Shown here: one piece after another, positions 4,737-43,763 of the stretch
Layout of the letters: each line of letters begins with the position of its first letter
Numbering within the stretch: the stretch's first letter is position 1
From: Alphaproteobacteria bacterium
GTDB taxonomy: Bacteria > Pseudomonadota > Alphaproteobacteria > Reyranellales > Reyranellaceae
Assembly (NCBI GenBank): GCA_016869975.1
Contig: VGCZ01000037.1
Coordinates: forward strand, 1-55,496
Direction of reading: 5' to 3'
DNA length: 55,496 nucleotides
Notes under the pieces: model-generated
Told to the model about the DNA's origin: nothing
Seen by the model: only the letters and a program-made list of their open reading frames with translations
The model's database searches: none
Translations under genes and position numbers: made by a program

Positions 4737-5690
4737 TCAGCCTAATGGCCTTCCCGTTGGCGGGGAAGGGATTGGCCCCGCCGACGCCTCGAAATGTCCG
4801 CGCAGCCGCTCTCGCGCGGTGGTCCCGGCGGCGCGGTCCCAGCAGTTCACAATCGCCACGCGAAATCCTCCCGGCGGCATGGCGTGCAGATGCGCGGCGC
4901 GACCTTCGTGGAAAGTGATCTGGACGCTGGAAATGCCGTCGGCTCGCGTGAGCTCGTCGATCATGGGGGCCGGCGGATGGCGATAGCGCCCGCCGTGCGG
5001 CAGGAAGAGCACGACGCTGTAGCCGGTGCGCCGGTCGCGGTCCGCGAAGCGCCACTGCTTCTTCTCGTAGAGTCGCACCACCGCCTCGACCCAGCCCGGG
5101 CCGTACAGATCGGGCCACTGGTCGGCGAAGCGCAGATGCACTTCGATGATGCGTCCGCCGATGGTCTCAAGATTGACCATGCCGCTATAGCCGCGGAGGT
5201 GCTTGCGGCACCACGCACCGCACCGATCCTCGACCACGGCGTTGGTTTCGGCATGTACCGCCCAATGATCGAAGGTGCCGTCGCCGCTCGCCTCGCCGGT
5301 GGCGTGGCGCCACCACAAGGGTTCGCCATCGAGTACCGCGACATCGCTGCTGACGTGGTCTCCCGTCAGCAAGGTCGTCCAGAAATGACCGGCGGTCTGC
5401 GCCTCCTTGTAGTCCTCGGCCGAGGCAATGACGCGGCTGCCCACGCCCATGCCCTTGAGGTTGTAGATCGGTTTGGAGAAGACCGGGAACGAGGGTGGAT
5501 CGACGCCGTGCGGCGCGGCGTCGAGGCCCTGGCTGCGCGCCACCGCCAGCTTGTCGTAGACCCAGCGGTGCTCGGGGTTCCACATCCAGGCGTCGCTGTC
5601 CTCGGTGGGGATCAGCACGTCGTCGGGGCAGGGCACACCGACGAAGTACTGCATGCGCCACGGGTCGATCTCGGCGATAGGCATCACCAT
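4737..5690 (-). CDS. ATP-grasp-like protein of unknown function
   Basis: 317-aa protein without a clear named family. The segment FPVFSKPIYNLKGMG resembles the nucleotide-binding strand and glycine-rich loop of ATP-grasp ligases, and SGMVNLETIGGRIIEVHLRFADQW resembles the metal-binding distal part of that fold, so a ligase acting on a carboxylate and an amine is possible. It opens divergently from egtB with about 140 bases between them and runs toward the GMC gene 38 bases away. The last residues (PSPPTGRPLG) are encoded by a palindromic repeat at 4749-4769, so the original C-terminus may have been altered. M1 or M3 could be the start. Function is unknown. Confidence 0.7.
   Translation of the reverse strand: MVMPIAEIDPWRMQYFVGVPCPDDVLIPTEDSDAWMWNPEHRWVYDKLAVARSQGLDAAPHGVDPPSFPVFSKPIYNLKGMGVGSRVIASAEDYKEAQTAGHFWTTLLTGDHVSSDVAVLDGEPLWWRHATGEASGDGTFDHWAVHAETNAVVEDRCGAWCRKHLRGYSGMVNLETIGGRIIEVHLRFADQWPDLYGPGWVEAVVRLYEKKQWRFADRDRRTGYSVVLFLPHGGRYRHPPAPMIDELTRADGISSVQITFHEGRAAHLHAMPPGGFRVAIVNCWDRAAGTTARERLRGHFEASAGPIPSPPTGRPLG
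4749..4769. repeat. GC-rich palindrome overlapping a gene 3' end
   Basis: CCTTCCC and GGGAAGG form a 7-bp stem around a short loop. The element resembles the other CCTTCYCC-type intergenic palindromes in this window (21849-21876, 37827-37851, 52807-52836) but lies inside the 3' end of the ATP-grasp-like gene. Confidence 0.5.
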
Positions 5691-30478: not shown

Positions 30479-31531
30479 ATGGAAATCGGCATGTTCCACG
30501 AATTCCAGTGCCCGCCCGGCCATAGCGAGGAGCGGGCCTTCGCCGAATCGTTCGAGCAGGTCGACGCGGCGGAGCGCTGGGGACTGGACTGCATGTGGCT
30601 GGCCGAGCTGCATGTCGCGCCGACGCGCTCGGTGGCCTCCGCGCCACTGGCGATCGCCAGCGCTATCGCCGCGCGCACCTCGCGCATGAAGATCGGCATC
30701 GCGGTGCAGGTGCTGCCGCTCTGCCACCCGCTGCGCGTGGCGGAGGAGGCGGCCACGGTCGACCACATCAGCCACGGCAGGCTGATCTTCGGCGTCGGTC
30801 GCTCGGGCTTTCCGCGCACCTACCAGGCCTATGGCGTGCCCTACGCCGAGAGCCAGGAGCGTTTCGCCGAGGTGCTCGAGATCATCCGCCGCGCCTGGAC
30901 CCAGCCGAAATTCTCCTTCGTGGGCAAGTACCACCGGTTCAGCGACGTGCATCTCGTGCCCAAGCCGTGGCAGAAGCCGCACCCGCCGATCCGCATCGCC
31001 GCGACCAGCCCCGATAGCTACGCCCGCATCGGCGCGTTGGGCTTTCCGATCTTCGTCGCGGTGCGCCTGGGCGTGCTGTCGGAGCTGGCGCCGCTGATCG
31101 CCCAGTACCACGCCGCTTGGCGCGAGGCCGGCCATCCAGGCAAGGGCGAGATCTATCTGCGCGTGCCGGTCTATGTCGCGCAGACCGAAGAGCGCGCCTA
31201 CGATGAGCCGCGCGCCAGCATCATGCGGTTCTACCAGGAGATGGCCTCGATCCTCGCGGCCAGCGCCAACGCCGAGGGTACGCGCGCCCTCGAGGATCGC
31301 GCCGGCCGCGCCGCGCAGCTTGGCAGCGTCAGCTACGACGAGGCGCTGCGCGAGAAGATCATCGTCGGCACGCCGGAGCAGGTCGTGGCGCGGCTGAAGG
31401 CGCTGCGGGCCGAGCTCGGCCTCGACGGTATCCTTGCCGAGATGAATTGCGGCGATCAGATCCCGCACGCGCAGGTGATGCGCTCGCTCGAGCTGCTGTG
31501 CAAGGAAGTCATGCCGCATGTGCGCAACTGA
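30479..31531 (+). CDS. LLM class flavin-dependent oxidoreductase
   Basis: 350-aa luciferase-like oxidoreductase with IGMFHEFQCPPG at the N-terminus, GLDCMWLAELH, IGIAVQVLPLCHPLRVAEEAATVDHISHGRLIFGVGRSG and IVGTPEQVVARL. GGGAGGAG lies just before the ATG at 30479. It heads a long co-directional run (nitroreductase, selenoprotein B-like, Mo hydroxylase subunits and further genes) with a 61-base gap before the nitroreductase, so it is probably in the same transcription unit. FMN/F420 use and monooxygenase activity follow from the family. Confidence 0.92.
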   Translation: MEIGMFHEFQCPPGHSEERAFAESFEQVDAAERWGLDCMWLAELHVAPTRSVASAPLAIASAIAARTSRMKIGIAVQVLPLCHPLRVAEEAATVDHISHGRLIFGVGRSGFPRTYQAYGVPYAESQERFAEVLEIIRRAWTQPKFSFVGKYHRFSDVHLVPKPWQKPHPPIRIAATSPDSYARIGALGFPIFVAVRLGVLSELAPLIAQYHAAWREAGHPGKGEIYLRVPVYVAQTEERAYDEPRASIMRFYQEMASILAASANAEGTRALEDRAGRAAQLGSVSYDEALREKIIVGTPEQVVARLKALRAELGLDGILAEMNCGDQIPHAQVMRSLELLCKEVMPHVRN

Positions 31532-31592: not shown

Positions 31593-32222
31593 ATGGCTGA
31601 CGTCTTCGAGATCATGCACACGACGCGGGCGATGCGGCGATTGAAGCCGGATCCCGTTCCCGACGATCTGATCCGCAAGATCCTCGAAGCCGGCATCTGC
31701 GCCGCCAATGGCGGCAATGCGCAGAAGTGGAAGTTCCTTGTGCTCAAGAAGCCGGAGATCAAGAAGGCGGTCGCGGTCTGGTACAAGAAGGCCTTCGACG
31801 AAGTGATCGGCCCGCGCTACGCCAGCTCGCCGCCGCCGCCGGGCTCCGATCCAGCGAAGTTCAAGCGCCAGCACGCCGCCGTCGAATACCTCACCGAGCA
31901 CTACCACGAGGCGCCGGTGTGGATCGTCTGCTGTCTGGAGGATGGCCCCAACCCCAGCCGCATGTCCGGCGCGTCGATCTATCCGGCGGTGCAGAACATG
32001 CTGCTGGCCGCGCGCGCGCTGGGCCTCGGTTCGACGCTGACGACGCGTCATATGCTCTTTGAGAAAGAAGCGGACGCCGCGCTCGGTCTGCCGCCGGGCG
32101 TGCGGTCCTATGCGATCCTGCCGATCGGCTACCCGATGGGAAAGTTCGGACCGGTCGGGCGCGGCAAGCTGTCGGAGTTCGTGTATTCGGAGACGTGGGG
32201 CCAGCCTTACGCGGAGGTGTGA
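31593..32222 (+). CDS. Nitroreductase family protein
   Basis: 209-aa flavin (FMN) reductase-fold protein. The N-terminus has the usual HTTRAMRRLKPDPVPDDLIRKILEAG with the FMN-contacting Arg pair, and the C-terminal part has AVQNMLLAARALGLGSTLTT and the ILPIGYPMGKFGPVGR tail. Family members reduce nitro compounds, quinones or enones with NAD(P)H. GGAGC precedes ATG 31593. The gene ends 2 bases before the selenoprotein start, whose ribosome site (GGAGG) lies inside this gene's last codons, indicating tight coupling. Confidence 0.92.
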   Translation: MADVFEIMHTTRAMRRLKPDPVPDDLIRKILEAGICAANGGNAQKWKFLVLKKPEIKKAVAVWYKKAFDEVIGPRYASSPPPPGSDPAKFKRQHAAVEYLTEHYHEAPVWIVCCLEDGPNPSRMSGASIYPAVQNMLLAARALGLGSTLTTRHMLFEKEADAALGLPPGVRSYAILPIGYPMGKFGPVGRGKLSEFVYSETWGQPYAEV

Positions 32223-32224
32223 CG

Positions 32225-33079
32225 ATGGATGGGCAACCAACCGGCTATATGGAGCGCACGCGGCACTACTACCGTGCCCTGGGCTACAAGAGCGACTACG
32301 TCTGGGCGATATTCCCCGACGTGCCCTTTGTGCGACTGAAGAAGCCGTTGTCGCAGGCGCGAGTCGGGCTCGTCACCACCGCCGGTCCGCCTGGCGACAC
32401 CAACCGGGACGCCAACGGCGTGCGGCATGTCTGGTCGGGCGCGGTATCGTCGCCGCCGGAGCGGCCCACGACCGATCTCGCTTGGGACAAGGAGTCGACG
32501 CACACCGACGATCGCGAGAGCTATCTACCGATCGCGGCGGTCCAGACGCTGGTCGCGGAGGGCGTGGTCGGCGACATCGCGGCGCGCTTTTATGGCGTGC
32601 CGACCGAGTATAGCCAGAAGAAGACGATCGAGACGGACGCGCCCGAGGTGCTGGCCCGAATACGCGAAGATGGAGCCGACGCCGCGCTCTTATGCGCGCT
32701 TTGACCCGTCTGTCACCAAACCGTGAGTTTGGTCGCCCGACATCTCGAAGCCAACGGCGTGCCGACGGTTGTGCTCGGCTCGGCCCTGGACATCGTCGAA
32801 TACTGCGGCGTGCCGCGTTTCCTGTTCAGCGATTTCCCGCTGGGCAATCCTTGTGGCCATCCCTGGCGGCCCGACATGCAGCGCGCCATCGTCGAGCAGG
32901 GCCTTCGCCTGCTCGACTCGGCGCCGGGGCCACGCACCACGGTGCGTGCGCCGTTCGAGTGGAAGGACGATCCCGGCTGGCGCGCGCGCTACAACCATAT
33001 CGATCCGGCCGAGCGCGAAGCGCTGCTGGCGCGCGGCGAGGAACGTCGCCGCCAGCGCGCGAAGCCTGGCACGGCATAG
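32225..33079 (+). CDS. Glycine/sarcosine/betaine reductase selenoprotein B family protein, in-frame TGA (UxxC)
   Basis: 284-aa protein containing an in-frame TGA at 32702-32704, read as selenocysteine 160. Across it the sequence runs ADAALLCAL-U-PVCHQTVSLVARHLEANG in one frame, giving a UxxC redox motif (Sec160, Cys163) where relatives have CPVC. Conventional calling splits it into 159-aa and 119-aa pieces. The N-terminal part has VRLKKPLSQARVGLVTTAG and the C-terminal part has FLFSDFPLGNPCGHPW, both typical of the GrdB/PrdB-related family. Anaerobic members reduce glycine or proline; the short alphaproteobacterial version is uncharacterised. Operon with nitroreductase upstream and Mo hydroxylase genes downstream. 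A perfect hairpin follows the TGA. Confidence 0.9.
32702..32733 (+). promoter_or_regulatory. Sec UGA codon with bacterial SECIS hairpin
   Basis: After the TGA (32702-32704), ACCAAAC (32715-32721) and GTTTGGT (32727-32733) form a perfect 7-bp stem with the 5-nt loop CGTGA. The loop starts 18 nt after the UGA and contains GU, as in known bacterial SECIS elements read by SelB. This is the clearest SECIS of the three in this window. Confidence 0.7.
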
Positions 33080-33107: not shown

Positions 33108-33578
33108 ATGACCATCGCCTTCACCGTCAACGGCGTGGCGCAGCGCGTCGATGCGCCCGAGACCACGACCTTGCTCGATGTCCTGCGCAATCGGCTGGGC
33201 CTGATGGGCACGCGTTATGGCTGCGGGCTGGAGCAGTGTGGCAGCTGCATGGTGCTGGTCGACGGTCAGCCGGTCCATTCCTGTACGCGCGAGATCGGCA
33301 CCGTGGCGAAACGCGCGGTGACCACCGTCGAGGGCTTGGGCACCGCGGACAAGCCGCATCCCATCCAGCAGGCCTTCCTCGACGAGCAGGCGGGGCAGTG
33401 CGGCTACTGCCTGTCCGGCATCGTGATGTCGACGAAGGCGCTGCTCGATCGCAACCCCAACCCGTCACGCGCCGACATCGTCGCCGCGCTCGACAAGCAT
33501 CTCTGCCGCTGCGGTACGCATCAGCGCATCCTGCGAGCAGTCGAACGCGCTGCCGCCACGCTGCGGGGGGCCGCATGA
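33108..33578 (+). CDS. (2Fe-2S)-binding subunit of a xanthine dehydrogenase-family oxidoreductase
   Basis: 156-aa small subunit that carries two [2Fe-2S] clusters and passes electrons from the molybdenum site. The plant-type cluster ligands are Cys39, Cys44, Cys47 and Cys59; the second cluster uses Cys98, Cys101, Cys133 and Cys135 in GQCGYC and HLCRCG. It resembles the alpha subunit of isoquinoline 1-oxidoreductase (IorA) and nicotinate dehydrogenase. GAGGA precedes ATG 33108. Its TGA overlaps the ATG of the Mo subunit. No FAD subunit is present, as in IorAB enzymes that use a cytochrome acceptor. Confidence 0.95.
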   Translation: MTIAFTVNGVAQRVDAPETTTLLDVLRNRLGLMGTRYGCGLEQCGSCMVLVDGQPVHSCTREIGTVAKRAVTTVEGLGTADKPHPIQQAFLDEQAGQCGYCLSGIVMSTKALLDRNPNPSRADIVAALDKHLCRCGTHQRILRAVERAAATLRGAA

Positions 33579-35692
33579 ACGCGCCCGTCTTGCCGACCAG
33601 CCTGGTCGAGAATCCGCGTCTGGATCGCTGGATCGCCTTCCTGCCCGATCGCACCGTGCGCATCGCCACCGGCAAGGTCGAGATCGGCCAGGGCGTTGTG
33701 ACCGCCATCGGACAGATCGCCGCCGACGAGCTCGACGTGCCGCTCGATCGGATCGTCGTGCTGTCGGGTGACACCGATGCCGGGCCGGACGAGATGTACA
33801 CGACGTCGTCGCTGTCGATCGAGGTGTCGGGCGGCTCGGTGCGGCTGGTCTGCGCCGAGGTGCGGGCCAAGGCGATCGAGCGCGCAGCGCTGCGGCTCAA
33901 CTGCAGCCCCGGCGATCTGAGCATCGAGGGCGGCCGGTTCGTCCAGAACGGCGCGGCGACGGGCCAGGACTACTGGAGCGTCGCGGCCGAGATCGACCTC
34001 AGCCAGGACGTCACCGGTACCGCGCCGGTGAAGCCGGCCTCATCATACACGGTGGTTGGCCAGAGCGTGCCGCGTGCTGACCTGCCGGCGAAGCTCAGCG
34101 GCGCCGCCTTCGTGCACGACGTGTTGCCGCCAGATGTGCTGCATGCGCGCATGCTGCGTCAGCCCTCGCGCGGCGCGACGCTCACGGCACTCGACGAGAC
34201 CGCGATCCGCCGCGCCGCCAAGGGCGAGCTGCAGATCGTGCGCGAGGCGAACTTCGTCGCCTTCGTCAGCCCTGATGAGAGCGTGGCGCAGGCGGCGGCG
34301 GTCGCGGCCGAGCGGTATGCGACCTGGAGCAATGTGCGGCCCATCGCGCCGGCCGAGCAGGAAGCCACCTGGTTGAAGGATCAGCCGGCCGAGGACCGCC
34401 ATATCGGCGCGCCGCGCCCGACATCGCCGCCAAAGAACCTGGCCCGGATCACCGTCTCGCGGCCCTACGTGGCGCACGCCTCGTTGGCGCCTTCCTGCGC
34501 GCTCGTCCAATACCGCGACGGCCATCTCACTGTGCGCTCGCACGGGCAGGGCATGCATCCGTTGCGGAAGAACCTGGCGGCGGCGCTGAACCTGCCGATC
34601 GAGGCGATCACCGCGCAGCATCTGCACGGCGCCGGCTGCTACGGTCACAACGGGGCGGACGACGCGGCGCTCGATGCCGCGCTGGTCGCGCTGCGCGTTC
34701 CCGGTCGATGGATCCGCCTGCAATGGCGACGCGAGGAGGAATTCGCCTTCGAGCCGGTCGGGCCAGCGATGCTGGTCACCCTGCATGTCGATCTCGACGA
34801 CAAGGGCCGGCCGACCGACTGGACGACCGAGATCTGGAGCGCCACGCATGTGCAGCGGCCGGGTAGTGGCAGCGGCTATCTGCTGGCCACGGAGGCATTC
34901 GCCGATCCGCCGCCCGAGGTGAAGCCGACCGATCCGCCGGAGGCACGCGGCGGCGGTGGCACGCGCAACGCCGTGCCGATCTACGACGTTCAGGCGCATC
35001 GCATCCTGCATCACCTGGTGCTGCGACCGCCGGTTCGCACCTCGGCGCTGCGCGGTCTCGGCGCACTGCCCAATGTCTATGCCATCGAGATGCTGATGGA
35101 CGAGCTGGCGGCCAAAGCCGGCGAGGATCCCGTCGCCTACCGCCTGTCCATACTGTCCGAGAAGCGAGCGCGGCGCATCGTCGAGCTCGTTGCCGAGCGC
35201 GCGAACTGGAAGGCGCGCGGGGCAGGTGGCTCCGGCAGGGGACTGGGCCTGGCGATGGCGCGCTACAAGAACCGCGCCGCCTATGCCGCCGTGGTCGCGT
35301 CGGTCACGGTGCAGGAGACCGTGAAGGTCGATCGCGTGTGGTGCGTCGCCGATGCCGGCCTTGTGGTCAATCCCGACGGCGCGCGCAACCAGCTTGAGGG
35401 CGGCATCATCCAGGCGGTGAGCTGGACCTTGAAAGAGCAGGTCAGGCTGGACGCGCAGGGCATCGCCTCGCGCGATTGGGACAGCTACCCGATCCTGCGC
35501 TTCAGCGAGGTTCCCGAGATGGACGTCGCGTTCGTCGATGCTGCCGGCAACCCGCCGCTCGGCGTCGGCGAATGCACCGTCGGCCCGACGGCGGCGGCGA
35601 TCGGCAACGCCGTCGCCCACGCCCTGGGCGTGCGTATCCATGACATGCCGCTGACGCGCGAGCGCGTCATGGCGGCGCTTCTCAAGACGTGA
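33575..35692 (+). CDS. Molybdopterin-binding large subunit, isoquinoline 1-oxidoreductase beta-like
   Basis: 705-aa molybdenum hydroxylase subunit that hydroxylates aldehydes or N-heterocycles with water as oxygen donor. The N-terminal half has IATGKVEIGQGVVTAIGQIAADEL, the middle HASLAPSCALVQYRDGHLTVRSHGQG, and the C-terminus PPLGVGECTVGPTAAAIGNA, where Glu in GVGE is the expected catalytic base. The N-terminus is shorter than many IorB proteins and lacks a twin-Arg signal, suggesting a cytoplasmic enzyme. Translationally coupled to the Fe-S subunit by ATGA; the VOC gene follows after 7 bases. Confidence 0.93.
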   Translation: MNAPVLPTSLVENPRLDRWIAFLPDRTVRIATGKVEIGQGVVTAIGQIAADELDVPLDRIVVLSGDTDAGPDEMYTTSSLSIEVSGGSVRLVCAEVRAKAIERAALRLNCSPGDLSIEGGRFVQNGAATGQDYWSVAAEIDLSQDVTGTAPVKPASSYTVVGQSVPRADLPAKLSGAAFVHDVLPPDVLHARMLRQPSRGATLTALDETAIRRAAKGELQIVREANFVAFVSPDESVAQAAAVAAERYATWSNVRPIAPAEQEATWLKDQPAEDRHIGAPRPTSPPKNLARITVSRPYVAHASLAPSCALVQYRDGHLTVRSHGQGMHPLRKNLAAALNLPIEAITAQHLHGAGCYGHNGADDAALDAALVALRVPGRWIRLQWRREEEFAFEPVGPAMLVTLHVDLDDKGRPTDWTTEIWSATHVQRPGSGSGYLLATEAFADPPPEVKPTDPPEARGGGGTRNAVPIYDVQAHRILHHLVLRPPVRTSALRGLGALPNVYAIEMLMDELAAKAGEDPVAYRLSILSEKRARRIVELVAERANWKARGAGGSGRGLGLAMARYKNRAAYAAVVASVTVQETVKVDRVWCVADAGLVVNPDGARNQLEGGIIQAVSWTLKEQVRLDAQGIASRDWDSYPILRFSEVPEMDVAFVDAAGNPPLGVGECTVGPTAAAIGNAVAHALGVRIHDMPLTRERVMAALLKT

Positions 35693-35699
35693 GGCGACC

Positions 35700-36611
35700 A
35701 TGACGACCTATGACCGCGGCGCCGAGGATGTCGGCAACATCGTAGGCCTCGAGCATGTCAACGTCACCGTCCCCGATCAGGGGCTGGCGACGCTGTACTA
35801 CGTCAGCGGCCTGGGCCTGACGCGCGATCCCTACATGATGACCAGCATCGACAACATGTGGATCAATGTCGGGCCGCGCAGCCAGTTCCATCTGCCCACC
35901 GGCTCGCCGCAGGTGCTGCGCGGTCAGGTCGGCCTGGTGATTCCCGACCGCGCCCAGCTGCTGACACGGCTCGGCCGCGTCAAGGACCTGCTGCGCAACA
36001 CGAGGTTCAGCTTCACCGAGCACGAGGACTACGTCGAGACGACGTGCCCGTGGGGCAACACCATGCGCTGCCACGAGCCATCGGCGCGCTTCGGTCGCAC
36101 GACATTGGCGATGCCCTATGTCGCCTTCGACGTGCCGATGGGAGCCGCCAAGGGCATCGCAGCCTTCTATCGCGACGTCATGGGCACGGCCGCGCGCGTC
36201 GAGGACGAGAAGGGCACGCAGGCGGCGCATGTCTCGGTCGGCCGCGCGCAGGAGCTGGTGTTTCGCGAGACCGACGCCGAGCAGAAGCCCTACGACAACC
36301 ACCACATCCAAGTCTATGTCGCGAGCTTCTCCGGTCCGCACAAGGCGCTGTCGAAGCTCGGCCTGGTGAGCGAAGAGAGCAACCAGTACCAGTATCGCTT
36401 CAACACCATCGCCGATCCGTCGACGGGCAAGGCGCTATTCAAGATCGAGCACGAGGTGCGCAGCCTGACGCATCCGATGTACGCGCGCCCGCTGGTCAAC
36501 CGCGATCCGCAGCAGACCAACCGCAACTACGCCGAAGGTCACGACGGCTGGGTCGTCGGCATCCGCGAGGCGATGGACAAACCGCGCGACCTGACGCGTC
36601 GTCGGTTATGA
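35700..36611 (+). CDS. VOC family protein (extradiol dioxygenase/glyoxalase fold)
   Basis: 303-aa protein with two vicinal-oxygen-chelate modules: GLEHVNVTVPDQGLATLYYVSGLGL at 18-42 and MPYVAFDVPMGAAKGIAAFYRDVMG in the second half. Candidate metal ligands are the His in EHVNV, the His pair in NHHIQVYV and Glu in FKIEHEV. The fold includes extradiol ring-cleavage dioxygenases and glyoxalases. Its place directly after the Mo hydroxylase suggests action on a hydroxylated ring product, but this is inference. A palindromic repeat follows its stop. Confidence 0.88.
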   Translation: MTTYDRGAEDVGNIVGLEHVNVTVPDQGLATLYYVSGLGLTRDPYMMTSIDNMWINVGPRSQFHLPTGSPQVLRGQVGLVIPDRAQLLTRLGRVKDLLRNTRFSFTEHEDYVETTCPWGNTMRCHEPSARFGRTTLAMPYVAFDVPMGAAKGIAAFYRDVMGTAARVEDEKGTQAAHVSVGRAQELVFRETDAEQKPYDNHHIQVYVASFSGPHKALSKLGLVSEESNQYQYRFNTIADPSTGKALFKIEHEVRSLTHPMYARPLVNRDPQQTNRNYAEGHDGWVVGIREAMDKPRDLTRRRL

Positions 36612-36721: not shown

Positions 36722-37816
36722 ATGAAAATCGCTAGCTACGAGGCCACGATCCTGCGTGTGCCCGAGGACGATCCGCTGGCCGACATGCCGGAGGAGGCGG
36801 GCCGTTTGCGGCCCATCGTCATCCTGCGCCTGCGCACCGACAGCGGCATCGAGGGTATCGGCGTGACGCTCTATGGCGGCCTCATGACGCGTTCGCTACA
36901 GGCGGCTATCGAGGATCTTTGTGCTGCGATCGTCGGCGAGGATCCGATGCGTATCGAGCGCATCGTCGCCAAGCTGCGGGCTGGCACGGGTGATTCGTGC
37001 GGGCCGGGCGGCATCTTCACCCTGGCGCTGTCGGCGATCGACACCGCGCTGTGGGACATCAAGGGCAAGGCGCTCGACCAGCCGCTGTGGAAGCTGCTCG
37101 GCGGCCATCGCGATCGCGTCGCGACCTACGCCTCGGGCTCGCTGCGCCGCGGGCTCACCGATGCGCAGGCCCAGCAGGCGGCGCAGACCCTGGTGCGCAA
37201 GGGCTTCAAGGCGATGAAGACGCAGATGGCGCTGCCCGGCGATCCGACGCCAGCCGAGGAGGAGCGCCGCGTGCGCGTCGTGCGCGAGGCCATCGGACCC
37301 GACATCACCCTGATGTGCGACATCAACCAACGCTGGCGGCCGGAACAGGCGATCGATATCGGCAGCCGGATCGAAGATGTCGGCCTGTTCTGGCTCGAGG
37401 ACGTTACGGCGCATGACGACTATGCCGGCCTGGCGCGAGTCACGGCGGCACTGAACACGCCGATCGCCGGCGGCGAGTATGTCTGGGGCGTCGTGCCGTT
37501 CCGTCACATGATCGAGGCGCGCTCGGTCGACATCGTGATGATCGACCTTGCGCGTGTCGGCGGTCCCTCGCAATGGATGAAGGTCGCCGGCATGGCCGAG
37601 GCCTTCAACCTGCCGGTGGTCAGCCACGTCATGCCGGAGATCCTGTTGCATATGGTGGCCGCCTGCCCCAATGGTCTGACCGTCGAGTACATGCCCTGGA
37701 TGCTGGCGCTCTACGAGGAGACGCCAACGCTTGAGGACGGCATGCTCGTGCTTCCGAAGACGCCAGGTCTGGGCCTGAAGTTCGATGAGAAGGCGATCGG
37801 GCGGTTCAAGGCATGA
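36722..37816 (+). CDS. Mandelate racemase/muconate lactonizing enzyme family protein
   Basis: 364-aa enolase-superfamily enzyme that abstracts a proton alpha to a carboxylate. The barrel carries the Lys pair Lys163 and Lys166 (KAMK), metal ligands Asp200 (LMCDINQRW), Glu226 (WLEDV) and Glu252 (GGEYVW), and His302 (SHVMPE) as the opposite base. ALWDIKGKALDQPLWKLLGG is the usual domain junction. All catalytic positions are intact, so it should be active as a dehydratase, racemase or cycloisomerase. Same orientation as the Mo hydroxylase/VOC genes and followed by an MFS transporter. Confidence 0.93.
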   Translation: MKIASYEATILRVPEDDPLADMPEEAGRLRPIVILRLRTDSGIEGIGVTLYGGLMTRSLQAAIEDLCAAIVGEDPMRIERIVAKLRAGTGDSCGPGGIFTLALSAIDTALWDIKGKALDQPLWKLLGGHRDRVATYASGSLRRGLTDAQAQQAAQTLVRKGFKAMKTQMALPGDPTPAEEERRVRVVREAIGPDITLMCDINQRWRPEQAIDIGSRIEDVGLFWLEDVTAHDDYAGLARVTAALNTPIAGGEYVWGVVPFRHMIEARSVDIVMIDLARVGGPSQWMKVAGMAEAFNLPVVSHVMPEILLHMVAACPNGLTVEYMPWMLALYEETPTLEDGMLVLPKTPGLGLKFDEKAIGRFKA

Positions 37817-41188: not shown

Positions 41189-41533
41189 ATGCTGAACAAC
41201 GCGCCCGACGCCGCGCATTATCCCGTCGATCCCACCCGCAGCGATCTCGTCGAGGAGTTCCGTCGCAGCCCCAAGGGGCCGCATAGCCGTGAGCTGCAGA
41301 TGTTGCTGCACCGCATGCGCTGGGAATCGCCCGGCGGTCGCTACGTGCTGTACGCGGTCGAGCCGGGCAAGCGTTGGATGCTGGGCAAGCTGCCCGGCAA
41401 GTGCAACGCGCCAGTCGAGCTGATGCACAACCGCGTCTACGACTCACCGGCCGCCGCCGAGTGGGACGTCTTCAAGCTGCGCTGGGAAGCGCTGACTGGC
41501 CAAGCTCTGACAGAACCGGCGATCGGGAACTGA
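41189..41533 (+). CDS. Small protein paired with a dimethylformamidase-like enzyme (candidate alpha subunit)
   Basis: 114-aa hydrophilic protein with no obvious domain signature; LQMLLHRMRWESPGGRYVLY and a C-terminal AAAEWDVFKLRWEALTG helix are the most structured parts. AGGAGAG precedes ATG 41189. Its TGA is one base from the ATG of the large dimethylformamidase-like gene, the same small-then-large order as the light and heavy chains of N,N-dimethylformamidase, whose light chain is about 130 aa. I infer it is the light chain; sequence support alone is modest. Confidence 0.65.
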   Translation: MLNNAPDAAHYPVDPTRSDLVEEFRRSPKGPHSRELQMLLHRMRWESPGGRYVLYAVEPGKRWMLGKLPGKCNAPVELMHNRVYDSPAAAEWDVFKLRWEALTGQALTEPAIGN

Positions 41534-41534
41534 C

Positions 41535-43763
41535 ATGCGCTTGGGCGGCATCGATACGACCTCCGTCCTGGGCTACGCCTGGCCGCCGGTGGTCGAACCG
41601 GGCGGGCGGGTCGCCTTCCACCTCTCGAGCGCGACGCTGAAGCAGGTCGATCTGTCGCTGGTGCGGGTGCGCTGCGGCGATCCCGACGCGGCCGGCCCAG
41701 GTCTGAAGGCCGTGCCGATCGCCAGCGCGATCGACGGCAAGCGCGCCGTGCGCCATCAGCCATTGCGGCCTGGCTCCTGCGCGGTGATCGCCGACCGGCC
41801 AGTGCTACGTGGCATCGACAGCTTCAGCGTTGGCGCCTTCATTTGGCCGACCCTGCCGGGCGTGGCGGCGCAGACCATCCTCGCGCGTTGGCGCGACGGC
41901 GCCGGCTGGCGTTTCGGCCTCGATGCCGGGGGTCATCTCGAGCTCGCCATCTGTGATGGTAAGGCCGTGGTCGTGGCGCGTACCAGCCAACCCGCACTTG
42001 GGCGCGAGTGGCTCTTTGTTTGCGGTAGCTACGACGCACGCACCGGCACGCTGTCCGTCCGGCAGGTCAGCCTTGACCCGCAGGCCGGCCGTGACCGCAC
42101 GGCCTCAGGCACGGCGAGCGCGGCCCCAGGATTGCGCTGGATCGCCGACGCGCCGCTGATGATCGCCGCACAGGCGATCGGCGAGGCGAATTTCGACGGC
42201 AAGATCGACCGGCCGCGCCTCTGTCGCGGCGCGATCGACGCCGCCGCGATGCGTGCGCTGTGCGAGGCGATCAACCCACCGGCGGGTGACGCCGATCTGA
42301 TCGCGGCCTGGGACTTCTCCATCGACATCCCCGGCCAGACCGTGCGCGACCGTTCGGCCAATCGCCTGCACGGCGAGCTGGTGCAGATCCCGGCGCGCGG
42401 CGTCACCGGCGCGAACTGGGACGGCACGGCCAACGACTGGCGCGCGCTGCCCGCGCATTACGGCGCGATCCATTTCTGCTCCGACGACATGCAGGACGCG
42501 GGATGGTCGCCGGATTTCACGCTCGACATCCCCGCCGATCTGCGCGGCGGCTACTACGCGCTGCGCATGACCGCGCAGCCGGCCGACGGTGATCCGGTCG
42601 ACAGCTACGTCGGCTTCTTCGTGCGCACACCGCGCACGGCGCCGAAGGCCAAGCTCGCCATTATCGTGCCGCTGGCGACGTACCTGGCCTACGCCAACGG
42701 CGCGCTGCGCATGGACCAGGTGCACGCCGAGTCGATGCTCGAGGGCCTGCTGGTGCTGTCGCGCGACGATCTCTACCTGCAGGTACATCGCGAGGTCGGC
42801 CTGTCGACCTACGACACCCACGCCGACGGCAGCGGTTGGCGGGTGAGCAGCGCCAAGCGGCCGATCCTCAACATGCGGCCGCGCTGCAACACCTTCAACT
42901 ACGGCAACGACACCCACCTGATCGACTGGCTGGAAGAGAAGGGAATCGACTACGACGTGGTTAGCGACGAGGACCTGCATCGCGATGGTCTGGCGGCGCT
43001 GAGCCCTTATCGCTGCGTCATGACGCTCTCGCACCCCGAATACTATTCACGGGAGATGTGGGACGCGATCGACGCCTATCAGCGCTCGGGCGGCCGCCAC
43101 ATGTATCTCGGCGGCAACGGCTTCTACTGGCGCATCGCCTTCCACCGCGATCTGCCCGGCGTGATCGAGGTACGCCGCGACGTCACGGGCGTGCGCACCT
43201 GGGAAGGCGAAGCCGGCGAGGCTCACCTTGCCTTCACGGGCGAGTCCGCGGGCCTGTGGCGCAGCAACGGCCGCGCGCCGCAGCGCCTGGTGGGCGTCGG
43301 CTTCGACGCCCAGGTCTTCGATCGCTCGGCCGGCTATCGCCGTATGCCCGACGGCGAGAACCCGCGCGTCGCCTGGATGTTCGCGGGCATCGCGCCGGGT
43401 GAGATGATCGGCGATTTCGGCGCGCGCAACGGCGGCGCGGCGGGGCTGGAGATCGACCGGGCCGATCCCGAGCTGGGTTCGCCGCCTGCGATGCTGCTGG
43501 TCGCCAGCGCCGATCGCATCGGCTATGGCGGCATGCCCGCGCCGGAGGAATTCCGCACCTTCCACCGCGGCCTCGATGGCGAGCAGAATGCCCGCGTGCG
43601 CGCCGACCTTGTCTATTTCCCAACCGCCAAAGGCGGCGGCGTGTTCTCGACTGGCTCGATCGCCTGGGTCACGGCACTCTCGCACAACAGGTACGACAAC
43701 AATGTCTCGCGGTTGATGGAGAACGTGGTCAAGCGGTTCATCGATCCGGCGCCTTTGGATTAG
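41535..43763 (+). CDS. N,N-dimethylformamidase large-subunit-like protein
   Basis: 742-aa protein of the dimethylformamidase beta-subunit family, mononuclear-iron amidohydrolases that split formamides. The N-terminal 250 residues form a lectin-like sandwich (SFSVGAFIWP, LFVCGSYDARTGTLSV), and the C-terminal part has VDSYVGFFVRTP, AIIVPLATYLAYANG, NTFNYGNDTHLIDWLEEKG and TLSHPEYYSREMWDAID. His500 and Glu502 in HPE agree with the iron ligands described for the Paracoccus enzyme, recalled from memory. Length is close to the characterised heavy chain. The physiological substrate may differ from dimethylformamide. Tail-to-tail with the GST gene with overlapping stops. Confidence 0.88.
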   Translation: MRLGGIDTTSVLGYAWPPVVEPGGRVAFHLSSATLKQVDLSLVRVRCGDPDAAGPGLKAVPIASAIDGKRAVRHQPLRPGSCAVIADRPVLRGIDSFSVGAFIWPTLPGVAAQTILARWRDGAGWRFGLDAGGHLELAICDGKAVVVARTSQPALGREWLFVCGSYDARTGTLSVRQVSLDPQAGRDRTASGTASAAPGLRWIADAPLMIAAQAIGEANFDGKIDRPRLCRGAIDAAAMRALCEAINPPAGDADLIAAWDFSIDIPGQTVRDRSANRLHGELVQIPARGVTGANWDGTANDWRALPAHYGAIHFCSDDMQDAGWSPDFTLDIPADLRGGYYALRMTAQPADGDPVDSYVGFFVRTPRTAPKAKLAIIVPLATYLAYANGALRMDQVHAESMLEGLLVLSRDDLYLQVHREVGLSTYDTHADGSGWRVSSAKRPILNMRPRCNTFNYGNDTHLIDWLEEKGIDYDVVSDEDLHRDGLAALSPYRCVMTLSHPEYYSREMWDAIDAYQRSGGRHMYLGGNGFYWRIAFHRDLPGVIEVRRDVTGVRTWEGEAGEAHLAFTGESAGLWRSNGRAPQRLVGVGFDAQVFDRSAGYRRMPDGENPRVAWMFAGIAPGEMIGDFGARNGGAAGLEIDRADPELGSPPAMLLVASADRIGYGGMPAPEEFRTFHRGLDGEQNARVRADLVYFPTAKGGGVFSTGSIAWVTALSHNRYDNNVSRLMENVVKRFIDPAPLD

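Follow-up and report, generated by a model that had tools for sequence, protein, structure and literature searches.

Reading frame and in-frame TGA

The window, which is the whole stretch of 55,496 nucleotides that was analysed, carries a same-strand row of genes for a monooxygenase, a nitroreductase, the predicted selenoprotein, IorA, IorB, a protein of no assigned family, an enolase-superfamily protein and a transporter. The features of the locus are listed below.

30479..31531, + strand: luciferase-like monooxygenase, upstream on the same strand
31593..32222, + strand: nitroreductase-family protein, directly upstream (BluB model 63.5 bits, below the cut-off of 150)
32225..33079, + strand: predicted PrdB-like selenoprotein gene, 284 aa via one TGA (from frame, profile, homologues and dN/dS)
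32702..32704, + strand: in-frame TGA, very probable Sec codon, residue 160, first position of UxxC (opposite TGA-coded residue 151 of clostridial PrdB)
32711..32713, + strand: TGT codon of Cys163, the presumed resolving Cys of UPVC (C163 invariant in 46 aligned sequences)
32715..32733, + strand: SECIS-like apical hairpin, 7 bp, loop CGTGA (from folding, conservation and covariation)
33108..33578, + strand: 2Fe-2S subunit (IorA-type) of a molybdenum hydroxylase (neighbour annotation)
33575..35692, + strand: molybdopterin-binding subunit (IorB-type) (neighbour annotation)
35700..36611, + strand: VOC-like by eye, no Pfam/NCBIfam match
36722..37816, + strand: mandelate racemase/enolase-superfamily protein (neighbour annotation)

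The gene is a single forward-strand frame that runs from the ATG at 32225 to the TAG ending at 33079, and its sole break is the TGA at 32702-32704. The read-through product has 159 + 1 + 124 = 284 residues, with the TGA as residue 160 within the motif CAL-U-PVC-HQT. The initial annotation had joined two open reading frames into one interrupted only by this TGA, and its frame, coordinates and motif were found as described. The ATG lies 2 bases past the stop codon of the nitroreductase gene and a GGAGG is present upstream of it.

The dN/dS values determined 3' of the TGA were 0.128 and 0.133 in the comparisons with the relatives L001 and L095, respectively, whereas the two other frames of the same region resulted in values of 1.9-2.9. 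Purifying selection goes on past the TGA, and coding constraint is present on both sides of it.

The codon at the TGA site was counted in 80 loci kept out of 132 confirmed ones. It was TGA in 8 and TGC/TGT in 72 of the 80; in the initial annotation, the TGA takes the place of the first Cys of CPVC. Truncation at this position, which the initial annotation had named as a sign against recoding, was detected in 0 of the 80 kept loci. Across the relatives, TGA at the aligned codon was found in 52 distinct sequences. In the alignment of 46 homologues, P161, V162, C163, H164, Q165 and T166 were invariant, as were many residues outside the motif.

SECIS-like hairpin downstream of the TGA

The perfect 7-bp hairpin with a CGUGA loop that the initial annotation had placed 11 nt after the UGA is present there: the stem is formed by ACCAAAC and GTTTGGT around the loop CGTGA, and its first base is the 11th base past the UGA. 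The folding energy gave a z of -2.54 for 61 nt starting before the TGA, -1.47 for 44 nt and +0.20 for 59 nt from the TGA. The mean folding energy past the codon was -13.4 in UGA genes (n=27) vs -15.3 in Cys genes (n=69), and since the UGA genes were not lower, folding energy was dropped as a discriminator between Sec and Cys genes. Folding energy alone is weak evidence for the hairpin; it is the covariation that proves it.

The covariation was determined with 52 UGA sequences, corresponding to 35 distinct rows. In these, 97.6% of the cells were paired compared with 89.7% in shuffles, and 0 of 500 shuffles reached such a level. The 35 rows contained 21 two-sided and 0 one-sided changes in the hairpin, against 4.6 two-sided changes in the shuffles, and the 6 unpaired cells were all located in the outermost pair. 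When the stem columns were slid by 1-3 positions, the pairing dropped to 13.5-34.3%. The weakest covariation measure was the count of further pair types, with 30 of 500 shuffles as high. The proposal that the hairpin serves as a SECIS element is thereby strengthened by its conservation through covariation across the UGA relatives.

The codons were compared after merging identical proteins (52 U, 72 C) and leaving out 2 U and 1 C sequences without PVCHQTV. The loop CGTGA was present in all 50 UGA genes of the UPVCHQTV type vs 4 of 71 Cys genes. All 7 pairs were formed in 43 and 6 of the 7 pairs in 7 of the 50 UGA genes; in the Cys genes all 7 pairs were formed in 3 of 71. The inner pair that varies is made by a Gln and a Leu codon; in the 50 UGA genes these were CAG+CTG (26) or CAA+TTG (24) and never mixed, and at least 6 switches between the two combinations were needed on the protein tree (43 rows). 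The hairpin is kept as RNA by paired synonymous codons and is eroded in the Cys genes. In a 31%-identical homologue from the same genome the CGTGA loop and its place are kept and the stem differs. The same holds for a protein of 29% identity from another genome (L164); in both of these homologues other residues follow the codon.

Relation to PrdB and GrdB

The best profile for the window protein was PrdB (TIGR04483) with 92.6 bits, at a cut-off of 300. The GrdB profiles were weaker: 31.8 bits with TIGR01918 (cut-off 65.45) and 15.7 bits with Pfam GRDB PF07355 (cut-off 22). The TIGR01918 match (E 7e-8) covers only the C-terminal part of the model, positions 279-421 of 431. The full-length alignment proposed earlier was performed with PrdB: in the hhalign comparison of a 46-homologue profile with clostridial PrdB, a probability of 99.8 and an E value of 6.6e-28 were obtained over 214 columns with 28% identity, and the TGA-coded residues of the two proteins stand opposite each other. 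The identity to annotated PrdB proteins is about 24-28%.

Stickland-type Prd and Grd reductases normally need a pyruvoyl partner subunit (PrdA/GrdE). No match to the family of this partner, PF09338, was detected in the 212 class genomes searched, the window's own among them (0/212). The positive control, the Terrisporobacter plasmid NZ_CP102985 with prdA and prdB, gave 75.3 bits, and the 14 standard control genomes were without PF09338. By sequence comparison, the window protein is homologous to PrdB and falls outside both D-proline reductase and glycine reductase; it was filed as neither because the PrdB cut-off was missed and no pyruvoyl partner was found. The initial label of a GrdB/PrdB-related protein thus stands in its PrdB part, as the best profile, and was given up in its GrdB part, where the match is C-terminal only and neither GrdE nor PrdA was found.

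The window protein resembles PrdB (TIGR04483) in being a single chain of similar length whose UxxC has its TGA-coded residue at the corresponding position. In contrast to PrdB, it scores below the cut-off, no PrdA was found with it, it has about 40 extra C-terminal residues, and its host has a COX1-type oxidase. It shares with GrdB/GrdF/GrdH the match to the C-terminal part of TIGR01918, but the N-terminal part of this model is unmatched, no GrdE was found and the length is 284 aa vs about 430 aa. Plasmid-borne proteins of Roseomonas and Haematobacter that are annotated as "glycine/sarcosine/betaine reductase selenoprotein B family protein" share 43-48% identity with it over 90% of the query. 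Other relatives at this identity distance carry Cys in the 80-locus set.

The structure model of the window protein (pLDDT 90.7, pTM 0.91) is a confident one of the alpha/beta type, and the motif in it lies between a strand and a helix. In fold searches of the PDB the best Foldseek hit had an E of 0.02 and the best VIA hit a Z of 8.6, the latter to the LacI core, a common alpha/beta arrangement. These fold searches gave no clear match, which does not show a new fold, and sequence searches of the PDB returned designed proteins only (E 0.004 and 0.03).

Selenium machinery and distribution

The sel genes, whose presence in the genome had been put forward as a check, were all found on contig 16 of the window's genome. 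The models for selA (561.9 bits), selB (474) and the SelD domain (267) were each above their cut-offs, and tRNA-Sec (selC) scored 71.9 bits. The selD candidate is a fusion, with 267 bits on the selD model (cut-off 125) and also 451.8 bits on the 'fusion_not_SelD' model, whose cut-off of 700 was missed. Two other tRNAs of the genome, at 49 and 47.6 bits, are barely above the gathering score for tRNA-Sec. Because the constraint past the TGA, the Sec/Cys homologues, the covarying hairpin and the sel machinery coincide, the gene very probably reads its internal TGA as selenocysteine.

The tRNA-Sec gene is about 1.6 kb away from selB, on the opposite strand and not nested in it (L092, 10093-12039 and 13672-13763; G000:C16); in other Alphaproteobacteria it is described as nested in selB (PMC8124441). 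A single in-frame TGA also occurs in the gene for the formate dehydrogenase alpha subunit of the window's genome (1493 bits; L115, G000:C13:64033-67077), and no CGTGA-loop hairpin was seen past that TGA.

Among the 212 sampled class genomes, a homologue match was detected in 24 and a TGA-bearing match in 18; the place of the TGA within the match was checked in the loci whose DNA was retrieved. All 18 genomes with a TGA-bearing homologue had selA above the cut-off vs 14 of the 194 others (Fisher p 8e-18, uncorrected for relatedness). In the 6 genomes with TGA-free matches only, selA was found in 1 (G120, a weak match).

In the window's bacterial family, a homologue was found in 74 of 75 genomes among the matches listed, with none for G018. 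At least one TGA-bearing match, having exactly one in-frame TGA, occurred among the matches listed in 72 of the 75, and G007 and G037 had homologues without in-frame TGA among those listed. Where a match was found (74 genomes), the number of copies varied from 1 to 6 among the matches listed, with 4 in the window's genome. Two more TGA-bearing PrdB-like paralogues were observed in this genome, at L113 5800-6654 (45% identity) and L114 6113-6877 (35%). A longer UxxC protein of 413 aa (UPFC) with one TGA and the loop CGTGA adjoins selA/selB in the genome G234 (L164 8466-9707); a relative of it lies on contig 58 of the window's genome (L163, about 4993-5628; G000:C58:7992-8627).

For the tree, 124 sequences were thinned to 90 at 93% identity and the Sec/Cys column was masked; it is a quick tree with some long branches, and 4 changes between Sec and Cys were needed on it. 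Four Cys genes of Bradyrhizobium (support 99) are nested in a 38-row group (support 96) whose other members all have Sec, and a replacement of Sec by Cys in Bradyrhizobium is therefore probable.

Gene neighbourhood

The initial annotation was right in placing the gene between a nitroreductase and IorAB, but among the compared loci this link is seen in the window's own genus only: the order nitroreductase-selenoprotein-IorAB was found in L001/L094 (apparently one contig) and L095. The nitroreductase-IorAB context was dropped as a function of the whole family on this ground.

The neighbour tally covers 119 flanking ORF calls of 33 TGA-bearing loci, not counting the window, L001, L123 and L124; the gene calls were heuristic and some of them are wrong. 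Among those listed, the TctC receptor was counted 9 times, FAD_binding_2 7, DinB 5 and FmdA_AmdA 4 times. No neighbour family common to most orthologues was found in the compared loci, and the gene context therefore names no substrate. A COX1-type oxidase was detected in the window's genome with 529.8 bits; judging by its gene content, the host is a bacterium with oxygen-respiration genes.

Predicted AhpD-like/PrdB-like selenoprotein gene pair

Eight relatives (L138, L139, L141, L143, L145, L146, L147 and L148) have an AhpD-like gene with its own in-frame TGA directly upstream. In these loci it ends 51-57 bases ahead of the aligned PrdB-like start, and its motif is NGCPF-U (CxxU). The AhpD-like gene scored 133.8 bits with the YciW-related (seleno)protein model and 35.4 bits with the 'peroxidase-related enzyme' model TIGR01926, below the cut-offs of 310 and 81.8, respectively. 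Its SECIS candidate was no better than shuffles (z 0.34). The window's genome contains one AhpD-like gene with one TGA, which is located on contig 13 (L169 1445-1993; G000:C13:90944-91492) and not beside the window gene. The pair suggests that the AhpD-like protein may be the electron donor of the PrdB-like protein.

PrdB figures among the known selenoproteins in a 2026 review, which also describes operons of Prx-like with AhpD-like selenoproteins (PMC13188914); in its accessible text no mention of an AhpD-like/PrdB-like gene pair was found.

Proposed function and alternatives

The reading preferred here, to which a probability of about 0.6 is given, is that the gene encodes a genuine selenoprotein, a partner-free PrdB-like reductase whose selenolate cleaves a polarised bond in one catabolic step. 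SelB with Sec-tRNA would recode the UGA by means of the downstream hairpin, as its conservation and covariation suggest. The single-chain reductase would work without a pyruvoyl subunit (PrdA/GrdE), and because the usual partner is missing, its reaction is probably different from that of D-proline reductase. In a small substrate carrying an amine, halide, thiolate or similar leaving group, the selenolate of residue 160 would attack a polarised carbon and displace that group. Cys163 would then attack the selenium, giving a selenenylsulfide and freeing the reduced product, and a dithiol protein, for which the AhpD-like CxxU protein is a candidate, would re-reduce the enzyme. For the window, this would mean an enzyme that acts at a single step within a gene cluster for oxidative catabolism.

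The sequence of selenolate attack, selenenylsulfide formation and reduction by a dithiol is modelled on the chemistry of Prd and Grd (PMC10298544). The closest precedent for a non-amine substrate is FarB of Cloacibacillus, a GrdB-like selenoprotein proposed to cleave a C-F bond through attack by its selenolate; its partner FarE has no pyruvoyl-forming cysteines (PMC10838667). As compared by description, FarB differs in belonging to an anaerobe, in having the partner FarE and in reportedly being without a conserved CxxC (PMC10838667). With the GrdE-like FarE present, this precedent is not a partner-free one.

That the TGA is not recoded at all, i.e. that a nonsense mutation or a sequencing error has hit a Cys gene, is suggested by the single base that separates TGA from TGC/TGT and by the Cys in 72 of the 80 kept relatives. 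The probability of this is practically nil: the TGA recurs at the aligned codon in 52 distinct sequences, constraint continues past it, the hairpin covaries and selA is associated with the TGA-bearing genes. Sequencing error and pseudogene were rejected by the homologue codons, the hairpin covariation and the dN/dS. A component of D-proline reductase or of glycine/sarcosine/betaine reductase that has been transplanted into an aerobe would account for PrdB being the best profile (92.6 bits) and for the aligned TGA-coded residues, yet it is very improbable, given the missed family cut-offs, the identity of about 24-28% to annotated PrdB and the PF09338 partner found in 0 of 212 class genomes, this one included, with a working positive control. 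The identity as D-proline or glycine reductase was rejected on the cut-offs and the missing partner.

The other reading that retains selenocysteine is that of a general thiol-disulfide oxidoreductase or peroxidase in redox defence. The UxxC motif, the varied neighbours and the AhpD-like gene upstream in eight relatives, with its weak 'peroxidase-related enzyme' match, would fit such a role. On the other hand, the protein belongs to the same superfamily as the substrate-specific PrdB and GrdB, many residues outside the motif are invariant, and genomes hold diverged copies (4 here, 1 to 6 in 74 genomes, among the matches listed), as expected for substrate diversification. We consider redox defence unlikely, albeit worth keeping in mind.

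With the partner-free form, it would become possible to test whether the selenolate of a Grd/Prd-type enzyme can cleave a bond when no pyruvoyl Schiff base is present. An extension of the preferred reading to an oxygen-respiring branch of the Alphaproteobacteria is put forward tentatively, as a possibility we would not bet on: the partner-free PrdB-like family may have expanded there into a set of catalysts for reductive bond cleavage (dehalogenation, deamination or desulfurisation class) which supply oxidative catabolism, and in some lineages an AhpD-like selenoprotein may be their dedicated electron donor.

Relation to previous reports

The aerobic setting, in a context whose biochemistry the initial annotation did not know to be described, has precedents: among the known selenoprotein families, PrdB ranked third in abundance in the Sargasso Sea data, with 42 genes (PMC1088965), and 235 PrdB selenoproteins were reported from the Global Ocean Sampling data (PMC2398784). 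These surface-ocean proteins are alike in UxxC, PrdB type and oxygenated habitat, but the likeness is by description and not by sequence, and their hosts and gene context are unnamed in the accessible descriptions (PMC1088965, PMC2398784). In a 2006 survey, formate dehydrogenase was the only selenoprotein of the Alphaproteobacteria covered (PMC1794560), and in four orders of the Alphaproteobacteria it is shown as the selenoprotein encoded next to selABC (Mukai 2021, PMC8124441). In the accessible parts of the open-access literature, nothing was found on the function of the PrdB-like family, and no report was found of the expansion in the window's family, the Sec-to-Cys switch of Bradyrhizobium or the AhpD-like/PrdB-like pair.

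Selenoproteins are stated to be rarely retained by aerobic bacteria (PMC13188914), in contrast to the 72 of 75 genomes of one family with at least one TGA-bearing PrdB-like match among the matches listed. Such genes would be split in two by gene callers for which every TGA is a stop.

Further features of the window

Two further features were observed on the + strand. The stretch 40971-41137 matches the Caulobacter sRNA family CC2171 (RF01867) with 77.4 bits, just above the gathering score of 75. At 41189-43763, a dimethylformamidase-like large subunit was identified by its DMFA2_C domain (308 bits), and it is preceded by a small ORF that matched no family.
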